Below the pieces are notes generated by a model. It searched no databases, was not told the origin of the DNA, and saw nothing but the letters and a program-made list of their open reading frames with translations. A DNA stretch of 36,520 nucleotides from Candidatus Heimdallarchaeota archaeon (lineage in GTDB: Archaea; Asgardarchaeota; Heimdallarchaeia; Heimdallarchaeales; Heimdallarchaeaceae), in assembly GCA_021399345.1 (NCBI GenBank), contig JAAFKI010000023.1, positions 1 through 36,520 of the forward strand, given 5' to 3'. This document shows positions 9,410 through 36,520 of the stretch, piece after piece. The stretch's first letter is position 1. Each line of letters begins with the position of its first letter. Position numbers and translations under genes: made by a program.

Positions 9410-10213
9410 TCACCCATAACCGCACTTTAATCTCCACTCATCATATCCTGCTAGATACAATCTAACATCAGGATAACCTATTTCTTTTAGAGCCAGATAG
9501 ACTAGAGCTGACTGGGGTGCTGACTCACAATATACAATTATTGTTTTATCCTTCTTTATTTCCCTTATTTTCATTTCTTCAATTAAATCTTCATTTTTCT
9601 TAATGATGAAATAATCAGGATATTCTTCGAAAAGATCTAGATACCAGAAATGAACAGCTCCTGGGATATTCCCACCTTGTTGATCTAAAAGGATAGCATA
9701 TTCAGAACGATTATCTACAAATATGAAATCCTCGGATTTAATGTTCAATACTATCTCATCTTTCGAAATAAATATGGAGTCATCTTGTTGGTTAAGAGTA
9801 AGGTTTCCTGGCTCTAATTGTATTTCTTCTGTAGATAATTCATTATTTTCCTTTTCCCATTTAGAAAAGGCACCATCTAAGAGAATAACGTTTCTGAAAC
9901 AGTAATAGTGGAGAGTCCAAGCAGCTATAGAACAATTAAGATTAAAAACATCATCAACTAAAACAAGTATGTCTTCATTATTAATTCCCTTTTGCTTAAG
10001 ATAGTTTGTAATTTTTTTACAGTCAGGAATAACATTAACCCCGTCTTCATCTTGTTCAACAAAAATACTGTCATCAATATGTATCGATCCAGTAATATGA
10101 CCCTTCTGAAATTTAGAGTAATCACGCAAATCTAATATTTTGTAATTAGAGTTGGTCATAAGACTAAGTAAGTCCTCTGTAGAGACGAAGGTTTGAACAT
10201 TATTCCCATACAT
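9410..10213 (-). CDS. Two-domain rhodanese (thiosulfate/3-mercaptopyruvate sulfurtransferase type)
   Basis: This 267-residue protein has two rhodanese domains. The N-terminal domain holds ILDLRDYSKFQKGHITGSIH but reads VLVDDVFNLNCS where the active-site Cys would be, so it is structural, as is usual in this family. The C-terminal domain has FVDNRSEYA, IPGAVHFWY and VYCESAPQSA, with the predicted sulfur-carrying Cys at 229. The active loop differs from the common CRxGxT/R of rhodanese, so the sulfur donor cannot be named. It follows deoxyhypusine synthase on the same strand after about 45 bp and may share its transcript. Confidence 0.88.
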   Translation of the reverse strand: MYGNNVQTFVSTEDLLSLMTNSNYKILDLRDYSKFQKGHITGSIHIDDSIFVEQDEDGVNVIPDCKKITNYLKQKGINNEDILVLVDDVFNLNCSIAAWTLHYYCFRNVILLDGAFSKWEKENNELSTEEIQLEPGNLTLNQQDDSIFISKDEIVLNIKSEDFIFVDNRSEYAILLDQQGGNIPGAVHFWYLDLFEEYPDYFIIKKNEDLIEEMKIREIKKDKTIIVYCESAPQSALVYLALKEIGYPDVRLYLAGYDEWRLKCGYG

Positions 10214-27669: not shown

Positions 27670-28542
27670 ATGCAAATTGAGAACCATAAGTGTTTTAGTT
27701 TAACTAAGAAAGGAAAATCTAAGCCTGAAGATATAATAAAAGCTAGACTAGAACGAGTAGATTCTGTTACAAAGTTTTTCAGATTGATTCAACCAGAAGA
27801 TCTTAGTTTCTATATTTCAAAATTGAAAGAGATGTTTAGTGAAGCTGTAGGTGATTATGATTTTAATTATAATGCTTTTAATTGGAAAATAATTAGAGAA
27901 AGGTTGGAATTGATACCAAATTTCCCTGACTTAGAGAAATCGGTCTTTCTTTTCGTATGTAAGACAATCAAGTTACCTAATAACTATACATCAGATAAAG
28001 GAGAAATTGAATTATTTCATTTCGATCGCATCAAGGCTCTCGAAAGAACCTCATATTACCTGGTAAAAGCTTTAGCTGATACCTACGGAAAAGAGGAAGG
28101 AACAAGAATCTATAAACAAATAGTCCCCTATTTAATAAAAGAAATGAGGTCTGAAGATAAAACAGAAAAACCACCAGATCCCAAAACAATTACGATTCTG
28201 GATTCCAATAAGAATTCAATAGAAAGATGGTGTAAAATGGGTCTTGCAGATTTTGCATTTTGTATATTTGATGATCATAAAGTGATCTATCGTTTTGATA
28301 GTTGCTTAACACCAGAAGCTCTGAAAGAATTCAATGACCCAGATATTGCTTACTTGAGTTCCTGCTATATTGCAGATGTTCCAGAATTTAATGAAGGTAG
28401 AACAATCCACCTTAGAAGAACTCAAACTTTACATCATGCCAAATTCTGTGATGAATTATATTGGAATAACCATGTTCATCCAGATGTTGAACAACCTTCT
28501 TTAGAGTTTACTGAAAATCTGGGGAAGAAATTGGAGGAATAA
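27670..28542 (+). CDS. ATC-hydrolase-like protein (L-2-amino-thiazoline-4-carboxylate hydrolase family-like)
   Basis: This 290-residue protein ends with a segment typical of the ATC hydrolase family: a Cys within SSCYIADVPEFNEG, then HLRRTQTLHHAKFCDELYW, matching the family RTxTLxxGxxxCDFRY pattern. It also has a YLVKALADTYGKEEG helix in the middle. Known members hydrolyse a thiazoline in cysteine synthesis, but most relatives are uncharacterised. The first 150 residues are helical and unfamiliar. A second gene with a similar C-terminal motif begins three bases after the stop, probably in one transcript. Confidence 0.5.
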   Translation: MQIENHKCFSLTKKGKSKPEDIIKARLERVDSVTKFFRLIQPEDLSFYISKLKEMFSEAVGDYDFNYNAFNWKIIRERLELIPNFPDLEKSVFLFVCKTIKLPNNYTSDKGEIELFHFDRIKALERTSYYLVKALADTYGKEEGTRIYKQIVPYLIKEMRSEDKTEKPPDPKTITILDSNKNSIERWCKMGLADFAFCIFDDHKVIYRFDSCLTPEALKEFNDPDIAYLSSCYIADVPEFNEGRTIHLRRTQTLHHAKFCDELYWNNHVHPDVEQPSLEFTENLGKKLEE

Positions 28543-28545
28543 AAA

Positions 28546-28830
28546 GTGGAAGTTTTTAGAACAGGAAAGTATCATTTCAGTGATCTTGATAAATTTCAGG
28601 AGTTACAACCCTTAGAATCTGCTAAACGAACCATCTTGAAAAGACTGAATTACCTGATTGGATTTATGATGAGTTTTTGTCATGTTGGCATCTTAACAAT
28701 GGAACATATAATAGTTGCAGGAGATTCATATTGCTCTTGTATTCTCCATGATACAAGGATAAATGATGATTTAACTCATCCATCTAAGGAGTTTTTCGAC
28801 AATATGTGGAGTTTGAAGGAACATCAATAA
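28546..28830 (+). CDS. Short ATC-hydrolase/V4R C-terminal-like protein
   Basis: This 94-residue protein starts at a GTG directly after the preceding gene. It contains LTMEHIIVAGDSYCSCILHD, which resembles the Cys-containing GDxxC end of ATC-hydrolase-like and V4R domains. Most of such a domain is missing, so it may be a partial paralogue of its neighbour, or a small partner subunit. No signal or membrane segment is certain, although YLIGFMMSFCHVGIL is hydrophobic. Function unknown. Confidence 0.45.
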   Translation: MEVFRTGKYHFSDLDKFQELQPLESAKRTILKRLNYLIGFMMSFCHVGILTMEHIIVAGDSYCSCILHDTRINDDLTHPSKEFFDNMWSLKEHQ

Positions 28831-28908
28831 CCTTAGAGTTTCTATAATTCGGTAGTTAGATTACACTTTAATAAGAGTTTTATACACTCAAATCTATTTC
28901 TAATTATC

Positions 28909-29307
28909 ATGAGTGAAAGAGAGATCAAGTATTACAAACTATTAGCTAAATTTTATGATACTAAAGAGAAATTTTTTGATGTTAAAGAGGATTTAGATGA
29001 GTTAGAAGGAAAGAAAGTTAATTTTAAGAAAAAGAATGCAGAAGTCAATCAAGAGTTACAAGAACGATTAATGAAAATAAATAAACTGAAAGAGAGTGGA
29101 AAAGGAGACAAAGTTCTCAAGGAAGAAGCTAAATTTAAGAAAAAAGAAGTTACTATAGCAGAAAATAAATCCAAAATTCAAAGCATTCTTATGAAAATTG
29201 AAAAGAAGAAATTAGAATTTCAGAAAGTTAGAGCTGAAATGGAAAAAACCGAAGCTCAAATCAAGACAGAATATTCTGATAAATTCACAGAATTATTGTC
29301 TGAGTAA
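28909..29307 (+). CDS. Coiled-coil protein, unknown function
   Basis: This 132-residue protein is made almost entirely of charged heptad-type helices (Lys/Glu-rich, for example LMKINKLKESGK and MKIEKKKLEFQKVRAEMEK), with a likely short break near residue 65. It has no cysteine and no membrane segment. A TTTTATACA element lies about 30 nt before the ATG. A T-rich stretch (CTTTTTCTTGTGTC) after the stop is probably its terminator. It precedes the ubiquitin-like cluster on the same strand but looks separately transcribed. Confidence 0.6.
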   Translation: MSEREIKYYKLLAKFYDTKEKFFDVKEDLDELEGKKVNFKKKNAEVNQELQERLMKINKLKESGKGDKVLKEEAKFKKKEVTIAENKSKIQSILMKIEKKKLEFQKVRAEMEKTEAQIKTEYSDKFTELLSE

Positions 29308-29490
29308 ACAATTACAAAAACTAGCTAAGGACTTTTTCTTGTGTCTTTCTTTTTCCTTTAAAATTCCTAGAAAGAGTATCCAAAGCTTCTCTACTTGAAT
29401 ATCCTTCAAAACAACTTTTTTAAACAATTATTCAGCTATCTTACTTGTTAGAAAGTGGCTCAAACCATACATAATATTACTTTATAAAAG

Positions 29491-30021
29491 GTGACAAAAA
29501 TTAGAAAACAACGAATTATCAAAGATTTTGATGCGCTAAGAAAACTCCATAAAGAAGGTGTTTTAGCTCAAGTGAAAGCATTTCCAAGTAAGAAGAAATC
29601 TATGGGACATCTAGCTATAGGTTTTGATGGACCTGAGAAGACACCTTATGCTGGTGGTAAGTATAAACTTGAAATTCTCTTTGGATCAAACTATCCATAT
29701 AAACCACCATATGTCCGATTACATACACCCATCTGGCATCCCAATTTCTGGCCAAATCCTAAAGAATATCCCAATAAAAGAAATATTTGCCTAGCTTTAG
29801 TTGATAATGAATTAGTAGGAAAACATGATGGCTGGTCTCCTGCTAAGAATATCACGACTGTTATTTATTCTATTCTTGCAATGTTTAATATTGAAGGAGC
29901 TTATGTAAATCCCAAAGATGTATTCAATAAAGAAGCAGCTCTAGAATTCTTAAATGATAAGAAGAAATTCATTAAAAAGGCAAGTTCTATTAGTAAGAAA
30001 TATGCAAAATCTTACTGGTAG
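29491..30021 (+). CDS. E2 ubiquitin-conjugating enzyme-like protein (UBC fold)
   Basis: This 176-residue UBC-fold protein has the YPYKPPYV strand, the HPN motif (83-85), the predicted catalytic Cys at 100 in RNICLALV, and the conserved GWSPAKNITTVI stretch (Trp 115). It would accept the modifier from the E1 and pass it on with a RING partner. HPN-to-Cys spacing is 17 against about 10 in typical E2s, and Cys-to-Trp is 15 against about 8, so both loops flanking the active site are longer. The C-terminus is lysine-rich. The only start available is the GTG at 29491. It heads the transcription unit with the JAMM and RING genes. Confidence 0.9.
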   Translation: MTKIRKQRIIKDFDALRKLHKEGVLAQVKAFPSKKKSMGHLAIGFDGPEKTPYAGGKYKLEILFGSNYPYKPPYVRLHTPIWHPNFWPNPKEYPNKRNICLALVDNELVGKHDGWSPAKNITTVIYSILAMFNIEGAYVNPKDVFNKEAALEFLNDKKKFIKKASSISKKYAKSYW

Positions 30022-30052
30022 AATTAAGTAAAATCTGAAAGGTGAGCTTACA

Positions 30053-30772
30053 ATGGAAAATGAATCTGAATTTCCCGAACAATATGAGAAACTCCTAAAA
30101 AAAATAGAAGCACTAGAGAAAGCCTTAGGACTTCATGAAGTTGATGACATTATTAAGGAAAAAATAGGTGTGAAACAAGAAATAAGTGAGGATACAATCA
30201 CTGAAGATGATTTACAAATCAAAGTGATAAATGAAATAGTTATCTCCCCCAAAGCTTATCTAAAGTTAGCTAAACATGCTTTAACTTATGCAAACGAAAA
30301 CATCCCAAAGAAAGATTGGGTAGAAATTATTGGCTTATTAACAGGGGGAATTAAACAAGAAGACACTCCTCTAGAACAGATTTTTGTTGAAGATTATTGG
30401 CCAGTAGATCAAGGTGATGCAGTCAGTGTAGAAATTGTTGATCAACAGATTTTCACGGAGATATTTCACAAGAAGAACGATGAACATTTTATAATAGGCT
30501 GGGCACATTCACACCCTAGCTATACTCCCTTTCTAAGCGATGATGACTTTGGCACACATCTCCGTTATCAAACCTTTTGGAATAAGTCTATTGCTATTGT
30601 TTTAGATCCCTTAATGATATCTCCTAAGAGTTTTGGAGTTGGAGTTTTCAGAATACACAAAGATAAAGAATCATACTATGAACTATCGAGTGAAGTAGAT
30701 GGTTTGAGCAGTGAAGCAGGTTATGAATCAATCAATCTTTTCATGAAAAACAAATATGAAACTGATTCGTAA
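30053..30772 (+). CDS. JAMM/MPN+ metalloprotease, Rpn11-like deubiquitinase candidate
   Basis: This 239-residue protein has a coiled N-terminal helix (about 8-40), then an MPN domain with the catalytic Glu 91 (VEIIGLLTG) and the JAMM motif HSHPSYTPFLSDDD, giving His 152, His 154, Ser 162 and Asp 165. The layout matches Rpn11 and other active JAMM isopeptidases rather than the inactive MPN proteins. It should cleave the modifier from targets or chains. It follows the E2 gene after 31 bp, with an AGGTGAG ribosome-binding site 8 nt before its ATG. Confidence 0.92.
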   Translation: MENESEFPEQYEKLLKKIEALEKALGLHEVDDIIKEKIGVKQEISEDTITEDDLQIKVINEIVISPKAYLKLAKHALTYANENIPKKDWVEIIGLLTGGIKQEDTPLEQIFVEDYWPVDQGDAVSVEIVDQQIFTEIFHKKNDEHFIIGWAHSHPSYTPFLSDDDFGTHLRYQTFWNKSIAIVLDPLMISPKSFGVGVFRIHKDKESYYELSSEVDGLSSEAGYESINLFMKNKYETDS

Positions 30773-30794
30773 AAAAATGAAAGCTGGGTTATAA

Positions 30795-31868
30795 TTGGAA
30801 CTAAACAACATCAAAACCTATCTAGCAATTGGAATTGTTGGATTAACCGTCGGAGTACTATATATGGCAATTCAGAAAGATTTGCCGAAAACACTCACTA
30901 TATTTTTTATAACCTTGTATGTTGTTGTTGCTCTGAGATTCTTTCTTGAAAGAAGACATTATAAAAAACATAAAACTATTCTCGCGAGCACTCAATTCCT
31001 AATACTTCCATTTTGCATAATGTTAATGGGAAATTATATCTCTCCCATAGCCGCAGCTTATGAAATATTCAGTATTGATATCGATTTATCTGGTGGGAGC
31101 TCAATTTATTCTCCTTTTAACCTAATCTCTATATCACTGATTTTTCCTGTGATTGTTCTTTCTCTCTATTTTCGAAACTTTTATTCTGGGAAATGGCCCG
31201 CAATTGCAGTAAACAGGAAGGTAAGAAGAGGAAGAAAAATACCCTTTTTGATAAATACAACTTATGTTGCAATTTTATTAGTTGGATTCTTTATTAATTG
31301 GCAAATCGATTTTGTAGGTTTCATTTTTGTTATTTTATACTTCATTTTTATCTTTAGATACTTCATAATTGCATTTGCAATGAGATCTGACCAACAAGCT
31401 CAGGTTACTTCATCTAGATCTGCATCAACAACTAGAAGAAGCAAAAGATCTGTTTCTACTAGATCAAGAAGACCGACAGCTTCTGCATCATCTGCTAGTA
31501 AAGCTTCAAGGTCTTCAAGTGCAAAAATTGCTCCTGGGATAGACGTAAAAGCAACTCGCTCTACTACAACTAAAAAAACATCCAAAATAACAACAGTCTC
31601 TAAAAAAATCTTTCCAATTGGTACACCAAAGAAAGAAGAGATGCAATGTATAATATGCTATATGGATTTTGATAAGAAAGACCGCAGAAGAATCATTTTA
31701 TGCCCCCATTGTCGTTATCCTGCACATGAAGACGAATTTATGAGTTGGTTTAAGACATCAAGACTCTGTGCTAGATGTAATCAGACTATTTCTACTAGAT
31801 ATGTAAACAATCCAAAATATAGAATCAACATAAAGCTCTATATTGAAAAAGTGATTGAAAAGCTATGA
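30795..31868 (+). CDS. Polytopic membrane protein with C-terminal RING-like zinc domain, E3 ligase candidate
   Basis: This 357-residue protein has about six membrane segments in residues 8-196 and a long Ser/Arg/Thr-rich, positively charged linker (about 200-275). A C-terminal zinc-binding module follows: C285 and C288, C303 and C306, H311, then C325 and C328. The order C2-C2-H-C2 resembles a RING, somewhat short and with the second half reduced, so cross-brace folding is inferred. Its place between the JAMM gene and another membrane gene points to a membrane-anchored E3. The start is a TTG at 30795; no better one is seen. Confidence 0.72.
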   Translation: MELNNIKTYLAIGIVGLTVGVLYMAIQKDLPKTLTIFFITLYVVVALRFFLERRHYKKHKTILASTQFLILPFCIMLMGNYISPIAAAYEIFSIDIDLSGGSSIYSPFNLISISLIFPVIVLSLYFRNFYSGKWPAIAVNRKVRRGRKIPFLINTTYVAILLVGFFINWQIDFVGFIFVILYFIFIFRYFIIAFAMRSDQQAQVTSSRSASTTRRSKRSVSTRSRRPTASASSASKASRSSSAKIAPGIDVKATRSTTTKKTSKITTVSKKIFPIGTPKKEEMQCIICYMDFDKKDRRRIILCPHCRYPAHEDEFMSWFKTSRLCARCNQTISTRYVNNPKYRINIKLYIEKVIEKL

Positions 31869-31941
31869 TAATTCGAGTAGCCAATTGTTTAATAACTTAA
31901 AAAATATAAACAAGTTGGAAAATAGAAGGAAAGGTATTATC

Positions 31942-32526
31942 ATGGCTACTTGGAAACAGCTATCTGCAGCATTTCTACTATCATTAACTTTAGTTGGTGT
32001 TTCAATTTATTATTTTATAGAAGATAACAATTTCCTTGGAAGAGTTTATATTTTTGCTGCAATTTTTGCTTTCCTAACTTTATTTGTAATTTTCAGAAGT
32101 TTATTTTATTTGAAACACAAAGCAACATTCAATGAAGTGTTTTTTGTTCTAATGGTTCCTCTAATTCCTGTTCTAATTATAATAACTCAGAAATTATTTG
32201 GGATTTACGAGCCTTTTATCGTTTCAACCGGAATATCTACAGAAGGTCTTGACTATATTTTCTATATCAATGCTGTAGATTTTGTTTTATTACCTTATTA
32301 TATAGTTAGCAACTTCATGATTTTTAGAACATTTATTCGATATCCTTTCATCAGACTCAAGGGAACAAGCGAAAAAGGTATTCCTCCAAAATTCTTTGGA
32401 TTCTTACTAATATTCATAATCCCTGCAATCTATATCTTAACTTCAGTATTCTATCTTGAAAATCTCTTCCTAGTGATTTTTGGTGGAGTGTATTTCTATT
32501 CTGCCTTATTGATGCTGTTTGTATGA
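31942..32526 (+). CDS. Polytopic membrane protein of the ubiquitin-like cluster, unknown function
   Basis: This 194-residue protein has about six hydrophobic segments, short loops and no recognised motif. ATG 31942 follows an AAAGGT site at about 8 nt. A longer reading from 31855 would overlap the RING gene and add a polar extension. It is the last gene of the E2-JAMM-RING unit, so a joint role with the RING membrane protein is possible. It lacks cysteine pairs and has no soluble domain. It ends 44 bp from the convergent disordered-protein gene. Confidence 0.6.
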   Translation: MATWKQLSAAFLLSLTLVGVSIYYFIEDNNFLGRVYIFAAIFAFLTLFVIFRSLFYLKHKATFNEVFFVLMVPLIPVLIIITQKLFGIYEPFIVSTGISTEGLDYIFYINAVDFVLLPYYIVSNFMIFRTFIRYPFIRLKGTSEKGIPPKFFGFLLIFIIPAIYILTSVFYLENLFLVIFGGVYFYSALLMLFV

Positions 32527-32570
32527 ATGATTCTAGAAACTAATTAGGTAAAGAAAAGATTTATGTCATT

Positions 32571-33206
32571 TCATTTTGGTTTCTTTTGCTTTGGTAACTT
32601 CGTCTGACTAGGGTATTTTTGTGTTGGTACTTTTTGCTTTGGAGTTTTCTCTTGAATAACTTCTTCTATTTGGGAAGCAGCTGGAGACTCTCTCTCTTTT
32701 TTTTCCTTTTTCTCTTCTTTTGGAAGTGATCGGGATTCCATGCCTTCGATTTCAGAGAATCTATCCCTATCTCTTGAAGGAGGAGTTTCTTCTTTTTTGT
32801 CTTTCTGCTTTTTCTCCATAGCTCTTGATTCCATGTTTTCAATATCTTTGAAAGTTTCTCTTTTAGGAATTGCTTCTTCCTTCTTTTCTTTGGTTTTTGA
32901 TGTTTTCTCAGCTGGAATGTAGTTTGGTTCTTTTGTCTTTTTTAGTTTATCTTGGCTAGGAATTTTCGATTTAGGGATTTTTTGTTTGGGAATTTGAGAA
33001 CTATTTTTCCTTTCTGAAGTACCTCGTAATTGCGCTCGAGCAGGAATTTTACCATCTTTTTTCCTTTTTTGCTTTTTTGGAGGAATTAGATCACTATCAT
33101 CTAATCTTTGTTTTGGAATTTTCTCCTTGGGAATTTTAGAATCATATGGATATTTTTGCTTTGGAATCTTGGCAGAAATCTTATTTTTCTTTTTTTTGTT
33201 TACCAT
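32571..33206 (-). CDS. Lysine-rich disordered repeat protein
   Basis: This 211-residue protein is more than a quarter lysine, with no cysteine and almost no large hydrophobic residues. It is predicted to be wholly disordered. PKQK/PKEK-type units recur (IPKQKYP, IPKEKIPKQ, IPKQKIPKSKIPSQ, and at the end TPKQKVPTQKYPSQ). A longer pair of repeats, IENMESRAMEKKQK and IEGMESRSLPKEEK, occupies 121-139 and 152-170. It is transcribed on the opposite strand between the two halves of the ubiquitin-like cluster. A role as scaffold, nucleic-acid binder or modification target is speculation. The codon bias looks like that of the neighbours. Confidence 0.6.
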   Translation of the reverse strand: MVNKKKKNKISAKIPKQKYPYDSKIPKEKIPKQRLDDSDLIPPKKQKRKKDGKIPARAQLRGTSERKNSSQIPKQKIPKSKIPSQDKLKKTKEPNYIPAEKTSKTKEKKEEAIPKRETFKDIENMESRAMEKKQKDKKEETPPSRDRDRFSEIEGMESRSLPKEEKKEKKERESPAASQIEEVIQEKTPKQKVPTQKYPSQTKLPKQKKPK

Positions 33207-33380
33207 TTTTAAATCAAATCCATGCTTTACTTTTCTTCAACGAATCTGTTTCCAAGAAATTCTAACACTCCAAATCTGTCTATTAACTGTTCTGAACTCC
33301 TCTTGTTATTACTTAGGATATATAACCTCATTTCTACTTATTTATATTACTATTTGCTTTCTTCAACAACCTAAATAAAA

Positions 33381-33401
33381 TGCTTTTTATACCGAAAAGC
33401 A
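33381..33401. promoter_or_regulatory. Dyad around the TATA box of the modifier gene
   Basis: TGCTTTT (33381-33387) and AAAAGCA (33395-33401) are a perfect 7-bp inverted repeat that encloses or overlaps the TATA-like TTTTTATA (33384-33391). A factor bound here would control the promoter. The predicted start of transcription is near 33415, leaving about 45 nt before the ATG at 33461. Confidence 0.4.
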
Positions 33402-33460
33402 TAGTTTTTTAACAATCTAATGCAATATAGATAAATTGTAATAAACAAGGAATGATTATT

Positions 33461-33811
33461 ATGAGCGAAGAATTTGAAGAATTATCCTTTGATGAAGAAG
33501 AAGAGGAAGTTGAAGAAGAAGAAATTATCTCAAAAACCCCTGAAAAGTCAAAGACTCCTGGAAGTAAAAAAATTAGTGTTTATTTTCAAAGCACTATTGG
33601 GCCAAGTCCAAAACAAGAGAAACTTGTTGTTGCCACTGATGCACCAATTGGTGACATCAAATATACTGTTAGCCAAATATTTGGACTACCTCCAGATGAA
33701 TTTCATCTGTCTCATGCAGGAAGAACCTGCGATTCAGGTGATGTCTTAGAAGATTATGGAGTTGAAGATGGAGATACCATTCTACTTATCCCAGTATCAA
33801 CTGCAGGATAA
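33461..33811 (+). CDS. Ubiquitin-like modifier with acidic N-terminal extension and Ala-Gly C-terminus
   Basis: This 116-residue protein has a very acidic extension (2-22) and a Ser/Thr/Lys linker, then a ubiquitin fold (about 37-116). From APIGDIK to the end it aligns with ubiquitin without gaps, including LPPDEF and AGRTCDSG. The equivalents of ubiquitin Lys48 and Lys63 are Arg88 and Asp103, Ile44 is Ser84 and Arg72 is Val112. The end is STAG, with no residues after the Gly. It is thus mature as translated. The E1 gene follows after 113 bp. The ATG at 33461 has AAGGA about 8 nt upstream. Confidence 0.88.
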   Translation: MSEEFEELSFDEEEEEVEEEEIISKTPEKSKTPGSKKISVYFQSTIGPSPKQEKLVVATDAPIGDIKYTVSQIFGLPPDEFHLSHAGRTCDSGDVLEDYGVEDGDTILLIPVSTAG

Positions 33812-33924
33812 ATGGAAGAAGTAATCAATATCCAAGAAAGAATTTCTCTTTCTCCCTCCATTTATTTTTCAAACAATCATTATTTTTTCATACTAGAAGC
33901 AGAGTAATACTTGAGGAGTATACC

Positions 33925-35175
33925 ATGAGCAACAAATCACAACAATCAAATTTTTTTGATGAAACATTCTCTGAAGAAGAACGAAAACGTCTAGATAGGC
34001 AACTTAGATTACCGGGTTGGAATCAAAAAACTTTGAAGGATTCAAAAGTGGTTATAGCAGGAATTGGCGGATTAGGTACCGAAATTGCAAAGAATCTGGC
34101 AATGGCAGGAGTTGGTACATTACATTTAATAGATTTGGACATTATTGAATACTCTAATCTTAATAGACAAATTTTATTTTCTGATGCAGATGAGGGGGAA
34201 CCTAAATCCAAAGTTTCAGCTAGAGCTTTAAAGAAAATTAATCCCTTTAGCAAATATATTTGGTATCACTCTAATCTTGAAGATGTTGATCCTGAAGTAT
34301 ATGCGACAGCTGATTTAATAATTTCTGGATTAGATTCAGTTACTGCAAGAGCTGAATTAAATCGTAGAGCTGTCCACTTCAAGAAAACTATGATTGATGG
34401 AGGAACAGCAACATACTATGGTCATGTTTACACTTACTCTCCAGGAGAGAATGCATGTCTTCAATGTGATCCTCAGATTGAAAGAGAAAGAGAAACTTTA
34501 GCAGCTTGTACTTTGGTTGGAGTTCCAAGAAAGAGATCTCACTGCTTGCTTAAGGGGCAGTTATCTTTTGAATCGAAACATAACAGAACTCCAGATACAG
34601 CAGTCATAGAAGAAATGAATGTTGTTCTAGATTATGCTAACAATTTAGTTAAAGAGCATTTTCCAGATAAAAGTATTTTTACAATTGACGAAGCTGTAAA
34701 GATGGTTGATCAGCATGATCCAACCATAATCACAATGAATGCAGTTATAGCTTCATTGCAATCGCAGGAAGCAGTTAAGATACTCCATCATGTCAAAGGA
34801 ATCAAACTTGGAACAGTAAACAAAGAATATGTTATTTACAATGGTTTGGTTGGTAAATTCTTCTACATAGAGAAGCCACCTAACAAAAAGTGTGCTTTGT
34901 GCGGTTCAGCTGCGATCATAATTGAGGAAGTAACAATTCCAGAAACTACAACTATCGATATGCTTCTTTCAATCATTAAGAATAAAGGATATAGCTATGA
35001 TCCTGAATTTGAACCATCTTTCTGGTTGATTGATAAGAAAGATCCAGAAGAAGTTGAACTCAATCTAACACTAAAAGAACAAGATATTAGGAATTATGAA
35101 ACTCTATTTGTTACAAGCTTAACCAAAAATGGTGAAGAAATAGATCTCTACATAAGGTTAATACTAAAGGGATAA
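33925..35175 (+). CDS. E1-like modifier-activating enzyme with UBA3-like active site and C-terminal UFD-like domain
   Basis: This 416-residue E1 has a nucleotide-binding IAGIGGLGTEIAKNLAMAG (44-62) and LIDLDIIEYSNLNRQ (68-82). A zinc site is formed by C178/C181 and C323/C326. The catalytic Cys 195 sits in AACTLVGVPRKRSHC, matching the UBA3 pattern CTIASxPRxPxHC. The last 80 residues (about 336-416) look like the ubiquitin-fold domain that recruits E2 in UBA3. It would adenylate the modifier Gly and pass it to the E2. It is shorter than UBA1, so it probably works as a homodimer. GAGGAG lies 7 nt before the ATG. Confidence 0.93.
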   Translation: MSNKSQQSNFFDETFSEEERKRLDRQLRLPGWNQKTLKDSKVVIAGIGGLGTEIAKNLAMAGVGTLHLIDLDIIEYSNLNRQILFSDADEGEPKSKVSARALKKINPFSKYIWYHSNLEDVDPEVYATADLIISGLDSVTARAELNRRAVHFKKTMIDGGTATYYGHVYTYSPGENACLQCDPQIERERETLAACTLVGVPRKRSHCLLKGQLSFESKHNRTPDTAVIEEMNVVLDYANNLVKEHFPDKSIFTIDEAVKMVDQHDPTIITMNAVIASLQSQEAVKILHHVKGIKLGTVNKEYVIYNGLVGKFFYIEKPPNKKCALCGSAAIIIEEVTIPETTTIDMLLSIIKNKGYSYDPEFEPSFWLIDKKDPEEVELNLTLKEQDIRNYETLFVTSLTKNGEEIDLYIRLILKG

Positions 35176-35337: not shown

Positions 35338-35550
35338 TTAAACTTTAACCAAATTTGCTGCTTGAGAACCTCTATCAGTTTCTTCAACATCGAATTCTAC
35401 TTCGTCTCCTTCTTTCAGGTCGTTAAAGTCTTCTTTAACACCAGAACGATGGAAGAAGACTTCTTTTTCTTCTCCTTCGACATTGACGAACCCATAATTT
35501 CGGTCATACATTATTCTTTTAACTACGCCTTTCAAGTTGGATTCCTCCAT
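35338..35550 (-). CDS. Cold-shock-domain protein
   Basis: This 70-residue protein has the single-stranded nucleic-acid-binding motifs of the cold-shock fold: NYGFVNVEG (RNP1-like) and EVFFHRSGV (RNP2-like), then LKEGDEVEFDVEETDRGSQAANLV as in CspA-type proteins. The first strand (LKGVVKRIMYDR) is standard. It likely acts as an RNA chaperone. ATG 35550 is preferred over a TTG four codons upstream (35562). The AT-rich leader contains no clear ribosome-binding site. Confidence 0.9.
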   Translation of the reverse strand: MEESNLKGVVKRIMYDRNYGFVNVEGEEKEVFFHRSGVKEDFNDLKEGDEVEFDVEETDRGSQAANLVKV

Positions 35551-35927
35551 ATTTTTGCTCAAATTGGAACTTTTTCAAGCTCAATCTTAATTAAAAACTA
35601 GTTCTCAGAAAATTCTTACTCCTTTAACGAAACAAAACAATCTAATTTCACTACTTTTTAACTTGCTATATGAATTTGGAAGGAGGCTTTATAAATTATC
35701 CTATCCGCCTAAAGAATTTGCTGAAATAACTTAAATATCCAATAAAACATGAAATAATAGAGAATCCCAGTGGAATTTAGTTCTTTAGCAGCATATTTGT
35801 TTATTTCTTATTTTTATGATAAATTATCGTCATATAGTCATATTAAAAGTACAATGAATCACTTTGGAAGACACTTTTAGGACAATTATTACAGGAGCTT
35901 TTATAGGGATTTCAAGGGAGAAATGTG
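35551..35927. other. Gap between the cold-shock and tnpB genes
   Basis: About 375 AT-rich bases without a gene. TTTATAAAT near 35688-35696 is a possible TATA box. A short minus-strand reading (35830-36024) is only the shadow of tnpB. The left end of the TnpB element must lie here, but I see no clear palindrome defining it. Confidence 0.4.
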
Positions 35928-36520
35928 ATGACGAAAGTACTACGAGTAGAATGCATAGAACTCCCCTATCACCAAGCTTTGAGTACGCTTTGTCATCGAG
36001 TGAAAAACCTCTATAATCGAGCAAATTATCTGATAAAACAATCTCTAAACAAAAAGAGTAAGTTACTAGTGTACTACGATCTCAACACCTTTCTCAAGGA
36101 AGAAGATTGTTATCGAGTTCTTCCTGCTCACACAGCTCAACACACACTCAAACTCCTCTGTTGGAATTGGAAAGCGTATTTCCGAGCATTAAAGGAGTGG
36201 AAAAACCATCCTAGCAAGTTTTTTGCCATACCTCAACCACCCAACTACAAAGCGAAGGATGGCGAAGTGGTAGCAATCTTCACCAACCAGCAAGCAAGAA
36301 TTGTTAATGGATGGGTAGTCCTTCCCAAAAAAGTAGGTTTTTACTACAAAACTCGACTGACTTCACGAACAACACTGAAGGAAGTAAGAATTGTACCTCG
36401 ACGAGTGGGTTACACTCTCGAACTAGTCTATGAGAAGGTCTTACCTAAACTGCGAAGACGTTTTACCAGGAAAGGTGCGATCGATTTAGGGTCTATCAAC
36501 TTTGTAGCCTTTGTGGATAA
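35928..36520 (+). CDS. tnpB: TnpB/IS605-type RNA-guided nuclease, partial (runs off the window)
   Basis: The reading frame is open from ATG 35928 to the end (197 codons). The start fits TnpB: RVECIELPYHQALSTLCHRVKNLYNRANYL, the usual N-terminal helix, with TAQHTLKLLCWNWKAYFRALKEW after it. The last codons encode KGAIDLGSINFVAFVDN, the RuvC-I strand with its catalytic Asp, so the C-terminal half (Glu, zinc finger, last Asp) lies beyond the window. AGGGAG is about 8 nt before the ATG. No tnpA transposase gene is visible on the left, so this is a TnpB-only element or its tnpA lies on the right. Confidence 0.9.
   Translation, partial: MTKVLRVECIELPYHQALSTLCHRVKNLYNRANYLIKQSLNKKSKLLVYYDLNTFLKEEDCYRVLPAHTAQHTLKLLCWNWKAYFRALKEWKNHPSKFFAIPQPPNYKAKDGEVVAIFTNQQARIVNGWVVLPKKVGFYYKTRLTSRTTLKEVRIVPRRVGYTLELVYEKVLPKLRRRFTRKGAIDLGSINFVAFVD

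Follow-up and report, generated by a model that had tools for sequence, protein, structure and literature searches.

The 36,520-nucleotide stretch analysed here (the window; positions 1 to 36,520 of contig JAAFKI010000023.1, assembly GCA_021399345.1, from a Candidatus Heimdallarchaeota archaeon) encodes a ubiquitin-like modifier (Ubl) that ends in Ala-Gly. Its gene is clustered with genes for an activating enzyme (E1), a conjugating enzyme (E2), a JAMM metalloprotease, and a membrane RING-like protein predicted to act as a ligase (E3). The favoured reading, with a probability of roughly 0.7, is that the Ubl is an Asgard modifier activated at its last glycine, conjugated and removed by the clustered enzymes, and separate from the Gly-Gly pathway.

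Conservation of the Ala-Gly end

The Ubl open reading frame (ORF) specifies 116 amino acids, with the C-terminus LLIPVSTAG followed directly by a TAA stop codon, and its acidic head contains two KTP motifs. The protein has the beta-grasp ubiquitin fold. Its match to the Pfam ubiquitin family lies slightly over the cut-off, its AlphaFold2 model (from an input of 30 family members) is confident in the core and of low confidence in the acidic head, and its top Foldseek match is Caldiarchaeum ubiquitin. ISG15 and ubiquitin head the matches listed by a VIA search; UFM1, SUMO, and Urm1 are not among the best 50 matches listed, a result that excludes nothing. Scored against the Ubl family profile, human ubiquitin reaches 21.7 bits and many ubiquitins in the PDB also match. 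In NCBIfam, at E 0.01, the Ubl, the E2, the JAMM protease, and the RING-like protein all remained without a match. Ubiquitin and the window Ubl align without gaps from residue 58 at an offset of 40, at which all the residue equivalences given in the original prediction are correct.

The modifier gene is under purifying selection (median dN 0.076, dS 1.131, omega 0.061 across 17 genes, with dS near saturation). Codons of the Ser-Thr-Ala-Gly end change synonymously across these genes, while the residues stay constant. A chance or spurious ORF is ruled out by this selection together with the conserved ends described below, and a frameshifted Gly-Gly gene is ruled out because Ala-Gly is common to the relatives.

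A search of 5.8 billion proteins yielded 83 relatives, making a family of 84 with the window protein. The end IPxS(T/I/V)AG occurs in 81; the exceptions are one protein that is cut short (P0070), one that runs off differently (P0083), and one that reads STADAF (P0081). A homologue with a Gly-Gly end, which the original prediction had named as evidence against itself, was sought, and none occurs among the 84. Ala-Gly is the exact terminus in 32 of the 81, and 1–13 further variable residues follow it in the other 49, so that the C-terminal glycine is exposed either as such or after predicted processing. These variable tails look like removable propeptides, and their position behind a conserved Ala-Gly is probably typical of processed modifiers. 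The earlier statement that there is no propeptide therefore holds for the window gene but not for the family.

Residues I110, P111, S113, A115, and G116 are invariant in a 30-row alignment, and Ser84, at the Ile44 position of ubiquitin, is found in 29 rows. Position 112, equivalent to Arg72, is Val in 23 and Ala in seven, and a wider set adds one each of H, Q, I, and F. Neither of two main linkage lysines is present in any row: position 88 (K48) is R in 22, V in five, and L, I, or A in one each, while position 103 (K63) is D in 21, N in five, E in two, and H or Q in one each. The Ubl is thus not ubiquitin sensu stricto, lacking Gly-Gly, the Ile44 patch, Arg72, K48, and K63, in agreement with the altered patch and linkage lysines of the original prediction. 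Lys54 is invariant and Lys67 (K27) is kept in 28 of the 30 rows; as a candidate site for chain formation, Lys54 may therefore be no worse than the K27 equivalent.

A cluster of putative modifier enzymes

Related loci were gathered by scanning one genome per species across 84,980 species. The best 80 of 148 related stretches were retained as 79 loci, or 80 with the window locus; these are not independent, as some records contribute several. The 79 are labelled as Heimdall-, Hod-, Kari-, Loki-, Sif-, or Sigynarchaea, as Prometheoarchaeum, or just as archaeon. According to local profiles made from those same 80 loci, an E1 gene is present in 60, an E2 gene in 51, a JAMM gene in 49, and a RING-like gene in 47, and all five genes, Ubl included, in 45. 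The cluster and the 81 conserved ends together bear out the original description of a divergent Ala-Gly modifier linked to an E1 and an E2.

The catalytic motifs are widely retained. All 51 E2s have the HPN..C motif, and HSHPx6SxxD is found in 47 of 50 JAMM proteins (the misses are ORFs of 86–192 amino acids). C(T/S)xxGxPRxxxHC is found in 56 of 60 E1s, the four misses being ORFs of 136–183 amino acids, and C178, C181, C195, C323, and C326 are invariant across 27 aligned E1 rows. The window E1 is a single chain of 416 amino acids, and its C-terminal domain aligns to the end of the SUMO and NEDD8 E1 subunits. Its best sequence matches are the E1s for SUMO (SAE2/UBA2, E 1e-31), ubiquitin (UBA1, 2e-30), and NEDD8 (UBA3, 7e-30), followed at a distance by UBA5 (4e-13) and ATG7 (8e-9), and its top Foldseek match is UBA3. 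Among the best 60 of 287 matches to the window E2 are UBE2T, UBE2L3, and others. Hydrophobic segments number four to seven in 43 of 44 long copies of the RING-like protein, and because it carries several of them, membrane targets are suggested.

In the proposed pathway, the JAMM protease would first trim the tail wherever residues follow Ala-Gly. The E1 would then adenylate Gly116 and carry the modifier on Cys195, from which the E2 would receive it, and the membrane RING-like protein would direct its transfer onto membrane-associated targets. The JAMM protease would also take the modifier off these targets.

A ThiF-like E1 could instead activate a sulphur carrier of the ThiS/MoaD/Urm1 type, a reading made highly improbable by the E2, JAMM, and RING-like neighbours, by the UBA2/UBA3-type cysteine with its helical insert, and by an end that is not Gly-Gly. 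Rhodanese proteins are absent from the nine scanned proteins of positions 27670–35175. SAMP, Urm1, ThiS, and MoaD are marked by Gly-Gly and an E1 with no E2, whereas the Ubl ends in Ala-Gly and has an HPN..C E2 in its cluster.

Table 1. Features of the window and of related loci; entries beginning with L or G lie in other loci or on another contig of the window genome.
Feature	Position	Strand	Remarks
Two-domain rhodanese-like protein	9410–10213	-	same contig as the Ubl gene
Coiled-coil-like protein upstream of E2	28909..29307	+	8/80 loci; membership uncertain
E2 conjugating enzyme	29491..30021	+	HPN...NIC motif
JAMM metalloprotease	30053..30772	+	EIIGLL, HSHPSYTPFLSDDD; top solved match Caldiarchaeum Rpn11
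Membrane RING-like protein, predicted E3	30795..31868	+	6 hydrophobic segments, then C-terminal RING-like zinc motif
Multi-transmembrane protein	31942..32526	+	19/80 loci
Lys-rich protein	32571..33206	-	repeats of KIPKQK type; gene divergent from that of the Ubl; 16/80 loci; membership uncertain
Ala-Gly-ending Ubl	33461..33811	+	acidic head 1–36, beta-grasp core 37–112, conserved IP-x-S-T-A-G end
Gly116 codon	33806..33808	+	predicted activated residue; preceding Ala115 identical in 30/30 aligned rows
E1	33925..35175	+	ThiF adenylation fold; predicted catalytic Cys195 (CTLVGVP..HC); helical insert about 196–262
Cold-shock-domain-like protein	35338–35562	-	below equivalog cut-offs
Partial TnpB-family ORF	35925–36518	+	NCBIfam NF040570, below cut-off; runs off contig end
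HerA/DUF87-type ATPase-Ubl ORF	L038:238-2016		ends ASTAG
HerA/DUF87-type ATPase-Ubl ORF	L039:10072-11814		ends SSRAG
HerA/DUF87-type ATPase-Ubl ORF	L040:1910-3718		ends ASTAG
Coiled-coil protein	L041:5516-6532		TKTP/SKTP-type end
Coiled-coil protein	L042:6132-7235		TKTP/SKTP-type end
Coiled-coil protein	L040:3890-5599		TKTP/SKTP-type end
Coiled-coil protein	L039:8843-10030		TKTP/SKTP-type end
Lokiarchaeal membrane Ubl (example)	L041:7144-7938		antisense, adjoining an Ala-Gly Ubl
Second JAMM of the window genome	G000:C169:178376-178708		outside both ubiquitin loci

Several further genes of the window and of related loci are given in Table 1. The Lys-rich repeat protein is a possible charge partner or target of the acidic-headed modifier. 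Coiled-coil proteins near the Ubl in other loci have ends that resemble, by eye, the KTP motifs of the Ubl head. The cold-shock-domain-like gene adjoins the E1 gene, the TnpB-family ORF is truncated by the contig end, and a rhodanese-like gene lies elsewhere on the contig.

Among 139 Ubl ORFs in the 80 loci, 108 match the Ala-Gly pattern. The remaining 31 comprise 29 membrane-anchored proteins without that end, one ending IVPASTAGKR (also an Ala-Gly end), and one cut by a contig end. The 29 are Lokiarchaeal proteins of 242–282 amino acids, with at least one N-terminal hydrophobic segment and a C-terminal Ubl ending in IPSRK or similar; they are encoded antisense to an adjoining Ala-Gly Ubl and may be membrane docking Ubls. 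Three genomes that belong to a single family (G073, G080, and G093) encode HerA/DUF87-type ATPases of 580–602 amino acids that end in an Ala-Gly-type Ubl (supported by Pfam for two of the three), and it is conceivable, at a tentative level, that the whole enzyme is itself conjugatable as a modifier.

Two ubiquitin-type genes and two classes of E1

The window genome, which is 88.6% complete, also encodes a second ubiquitin of 78 amino acids with the end ARTKGGL (RTKGG). The original prediction held that a nearby second ubiquitin gene using the same E1 would tell against it. The second ubiquitin gene lies on a separate contig, next to a distinct E1 gene that encodes 334 amino acids. Also encoded in that region are Vps4, two copies of Snf7, a subunit of ESCRT-II, an EAP30 protein, and a protein in which E2/UEV-like and VPS28 domains are combined. 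An RTxGG end, with or without a short tail, is found in all 37 distinct relatives examined of this second ubiquitin.

Both types were sought in 96 genomes, comprising the window genome and those of its relatives; these are incomplete, so absences are soft. The window Ubl has matches at E 0.01 in 48 genomes. In three of these the match is weak and overlaps the second ubiquitin; the other 45 have matches with E <1e-15. The RTxGG type occurs in 72 of the 96 and in 36 of those 45, and two further genomes of the 45 (G068 and G090) have a more distant ubiquitin with the end TQAGG.

The E1s are divided in the same way. The Ala-Gly E1s (31 rows, near-copies removed) are set apart from 23 Gly-Gly-type E1s by a branch with 100/100 support, and a helical catalytic-cysteine insert is present in the former and not in the latter. 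From these sequence comparisons, the Ubl is likely to be a conjugated modifier insulated from ubiquitin through its tail and its E1. The pathways would be kept apart by the difference between the STAG and RTxGG tails and by the division of the E1s, comparable to the separation of NEDD8 from ubiquitin by residue 72, with the penultimate Ala, the Val or Ala at 112, and the Ser at 84 barring ubiquitin's E1, readers, and proteases.

A number of observations weigh against such a separate pathway. With a MoeB-like outgroup, the Ala-Gly E1s nest inside the Gly-Gly E1s (fork support 81/61) on a long branch, and may therefore be a fast-changed offshoot. The RING match falls under the Pfam cut-offs, and a strict zinc pattern fits 19 of the 47 copies. 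In 20 of the 80 loci, an Ala-Gly Ubl occurs without an E1 in the DNA available, and in one more (L098) the E1 starts 3.1 kb on. Downstream of the Ubl, nine of the 20 loci extend for 5 kb or more, and three do so in both directions, the rest being nearer contig ends, so some Ala-Gly Ubls stand apart from the enzymes. The 29 membrane-anchored relatives are not conjugatable through an Ala-Gly end. The genome also has a second JAMM, which could serve the Gly-Gly ubiquitin, and four E2-fold matches, so the clustered enzymes are candidate partners of the modifier. Finally, the genomes are metagenome-assembled.

This possible nesting of the E1s would also be in line with the rival view that the Ubl is an ordinary archaeal ubiquitin with drifted Gly75 and Arg72, sharing its enzymes and readers with Gly-Gly ubiquitin and having no separate role. 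The common fold and the clear profile similarity to human and PDB ubiquitins fit this explanation, as does the similar operon of Caldiarchaeum, which, in the available part of the source, carries a Gly-Gly ubiquitin (PMC5654768). Drift is nonetheless unlikely, given that Ala-Gly is kept in loci labelled Heimdall-, Hod-, Kari-, Loki-, Sif-, and Sigynarchaea, that Ser84 is nearly constant, that the E1s split and differ by the helical insert, and that both types are present in 36 of 45 genomes.

The membrane-anchored relatives, in which the fold alone seems useful, and the Ala-Gly Ubls distant from any E1 would suit a non-covalent docking module like Hub1, its end conserved for binding only; conservation of that end does extend back to IP. 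Set against this are the linked E1 with its invariant catalytic-type cysteine, the intact E2 and JAMM motifs, and the variable tails, which would fit a processed modifier. Docking alone is accordingly improbable, and more so than drift. A conjugated modifier with a pathway of its own remains the preferred reading.

Relation to known systems and significance

The operon type is already known in outline. The Caldiarchaeum subterraneum operon encodes CsUb, an E1, an E2, the srfp RING protein, and Rpn11, and, according to the available parts of the sources, it conjugates, and its Rpn11 removes the nine residues that follow the Gly-Gly motif (PMC5654768, PMC6043591). As far as those parts describe it, the likeness extends to the gene set, a ubiquitin-fold modifier with a removable tail (cut in Caldiarchaeum by an Rpn11-like JAMM), and an E1 with a catalytic-cysteine domain and a C-terminal ubiquitin-like domain. 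The same five-gene clustering is seen in the window and in 45 of the 80 loci, with the weak RING match already mentioned. CsUb, however, is described there as ending in Gly-Gly and keeping the hydrophobic patch, in contrast to the Ala-Gly end and the Ser at the Ile44 position of the window Ubl. The window RING-like protein differs in having several hydrophobic segments, and the window genome in carrying a second, Gly-Gly-type gene.

HeimAB125_14240 is a Heimdallarchaeal ubiquitin linked with ESCRT, in which, according to the part of the source available, V45 is the I44 equivalent and is needed for UEV binding (PMC9192718). It comes from the window's genus, and its counterpart in the window genome adjoins genes for Vps4, VPS28, two Snf7 proteins, and components of ESCRT-II type. 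The window Ubl, by contrast, has Ser84 where V45 is reported, and sits in another locus; its copy in Heimdallarchaeote AB_125 lies in L064.

Resemblance to NEDD8, SUMO, and ISG15 lies in the dedicated E1–E2 sets, the window E1 being closest to SAE2/UBA2 by sequence and to UBA3 by Foldseek. These modifiers end in Gly-Gly and their E1s are heterodimers or long single chains, whereas the window Ubl ends in Ala-Gly and its E1 is one chain of 416 amino acids. Residue 72 separates NEDD8 from ubiquitin, and it is not Arg in the window Ubl either.

UFM1, ATG12, and ATG8 share with the Ubl the lack of a Gly-Gly end, and the IP of the UFM1 tail (IIPRDRVG) is in register with that of LIPVSTAG. The window E1, however, is not of the UBA5 or ATG7 type. 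UFM1 membership was rejected on the helical insert (a UBA5-type E1 has no separate catalytic-cysteine domain), on the far weaker match to UBA5 than to SAE2, and on the 3.5 bits that UFM1 scores against the Ubl family profile, below the best of 88 scored shuffles (7.2). ATG8/ATG12 membership was rejected on the ATG7 match, which is far weaker than those to SAE2, UBA1, and UBA3. Kinship with UFM1 or ATG12, which the original prediction said the Ubl resembles, is thus not upheld.

Among the titles and abstract openings listed by the literature searches, none describes an Ala-Gly archaeal modifier. Apparently new within the parts of the literature examined are the conservation of Ala-Gly throughout the family and the variable tails behind it, the split E1 class, and the coexistence with the Gly-Gly type. 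The available part of PMC5654768 mentions gene clusters I–III in its supplement, where this type of operon may already be depicted.

The modifier's sequence has practical consequences. Standard Gly-Gly-remnant proteomics would miss the modifier, yet detect the RTKGG ubiquitin of the same genome. The original prediction envisaged Ala-Gly remnants on lysines, but trypsin would leave a 28-residue remnant on the target, because there is no Lys or Arg after Arg88 up to Gly116. Digestion with Asp-N or Glu-C is expected to give lysine remnants such as DTILLIPVSTAG.

A broader proposal, held at somewhat short of even odds, joins two insulated Asgard systems (a Gly-Gly system tied to ESCRT and an Ala-Gly system tied to membranes) to a eukaryote-like Ala-Gly E1, so that the multi-modifier logic seen in ubiquitin, NEDD8, and SUMO would be older than eukaryotes themselves. 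The layout of the Ala-Gly E1, with its helical cysteine insert and C-terminal ubiquitin-fold-like domain, may be the more eukaryote-like of the two; the Gly-Gly E1 has the stronger match to UBA3 (E 1e-36, against 7e-30), which counts against this argument from architecture. If the Ala-Gly pathway is real, parallel, insulated ubiquitin-type pathways would already have been present in archaea related to eukaryotes. The Ala-Gly modifier would also provide a natural test for the prevalence of Gly-Gly among modifiers.
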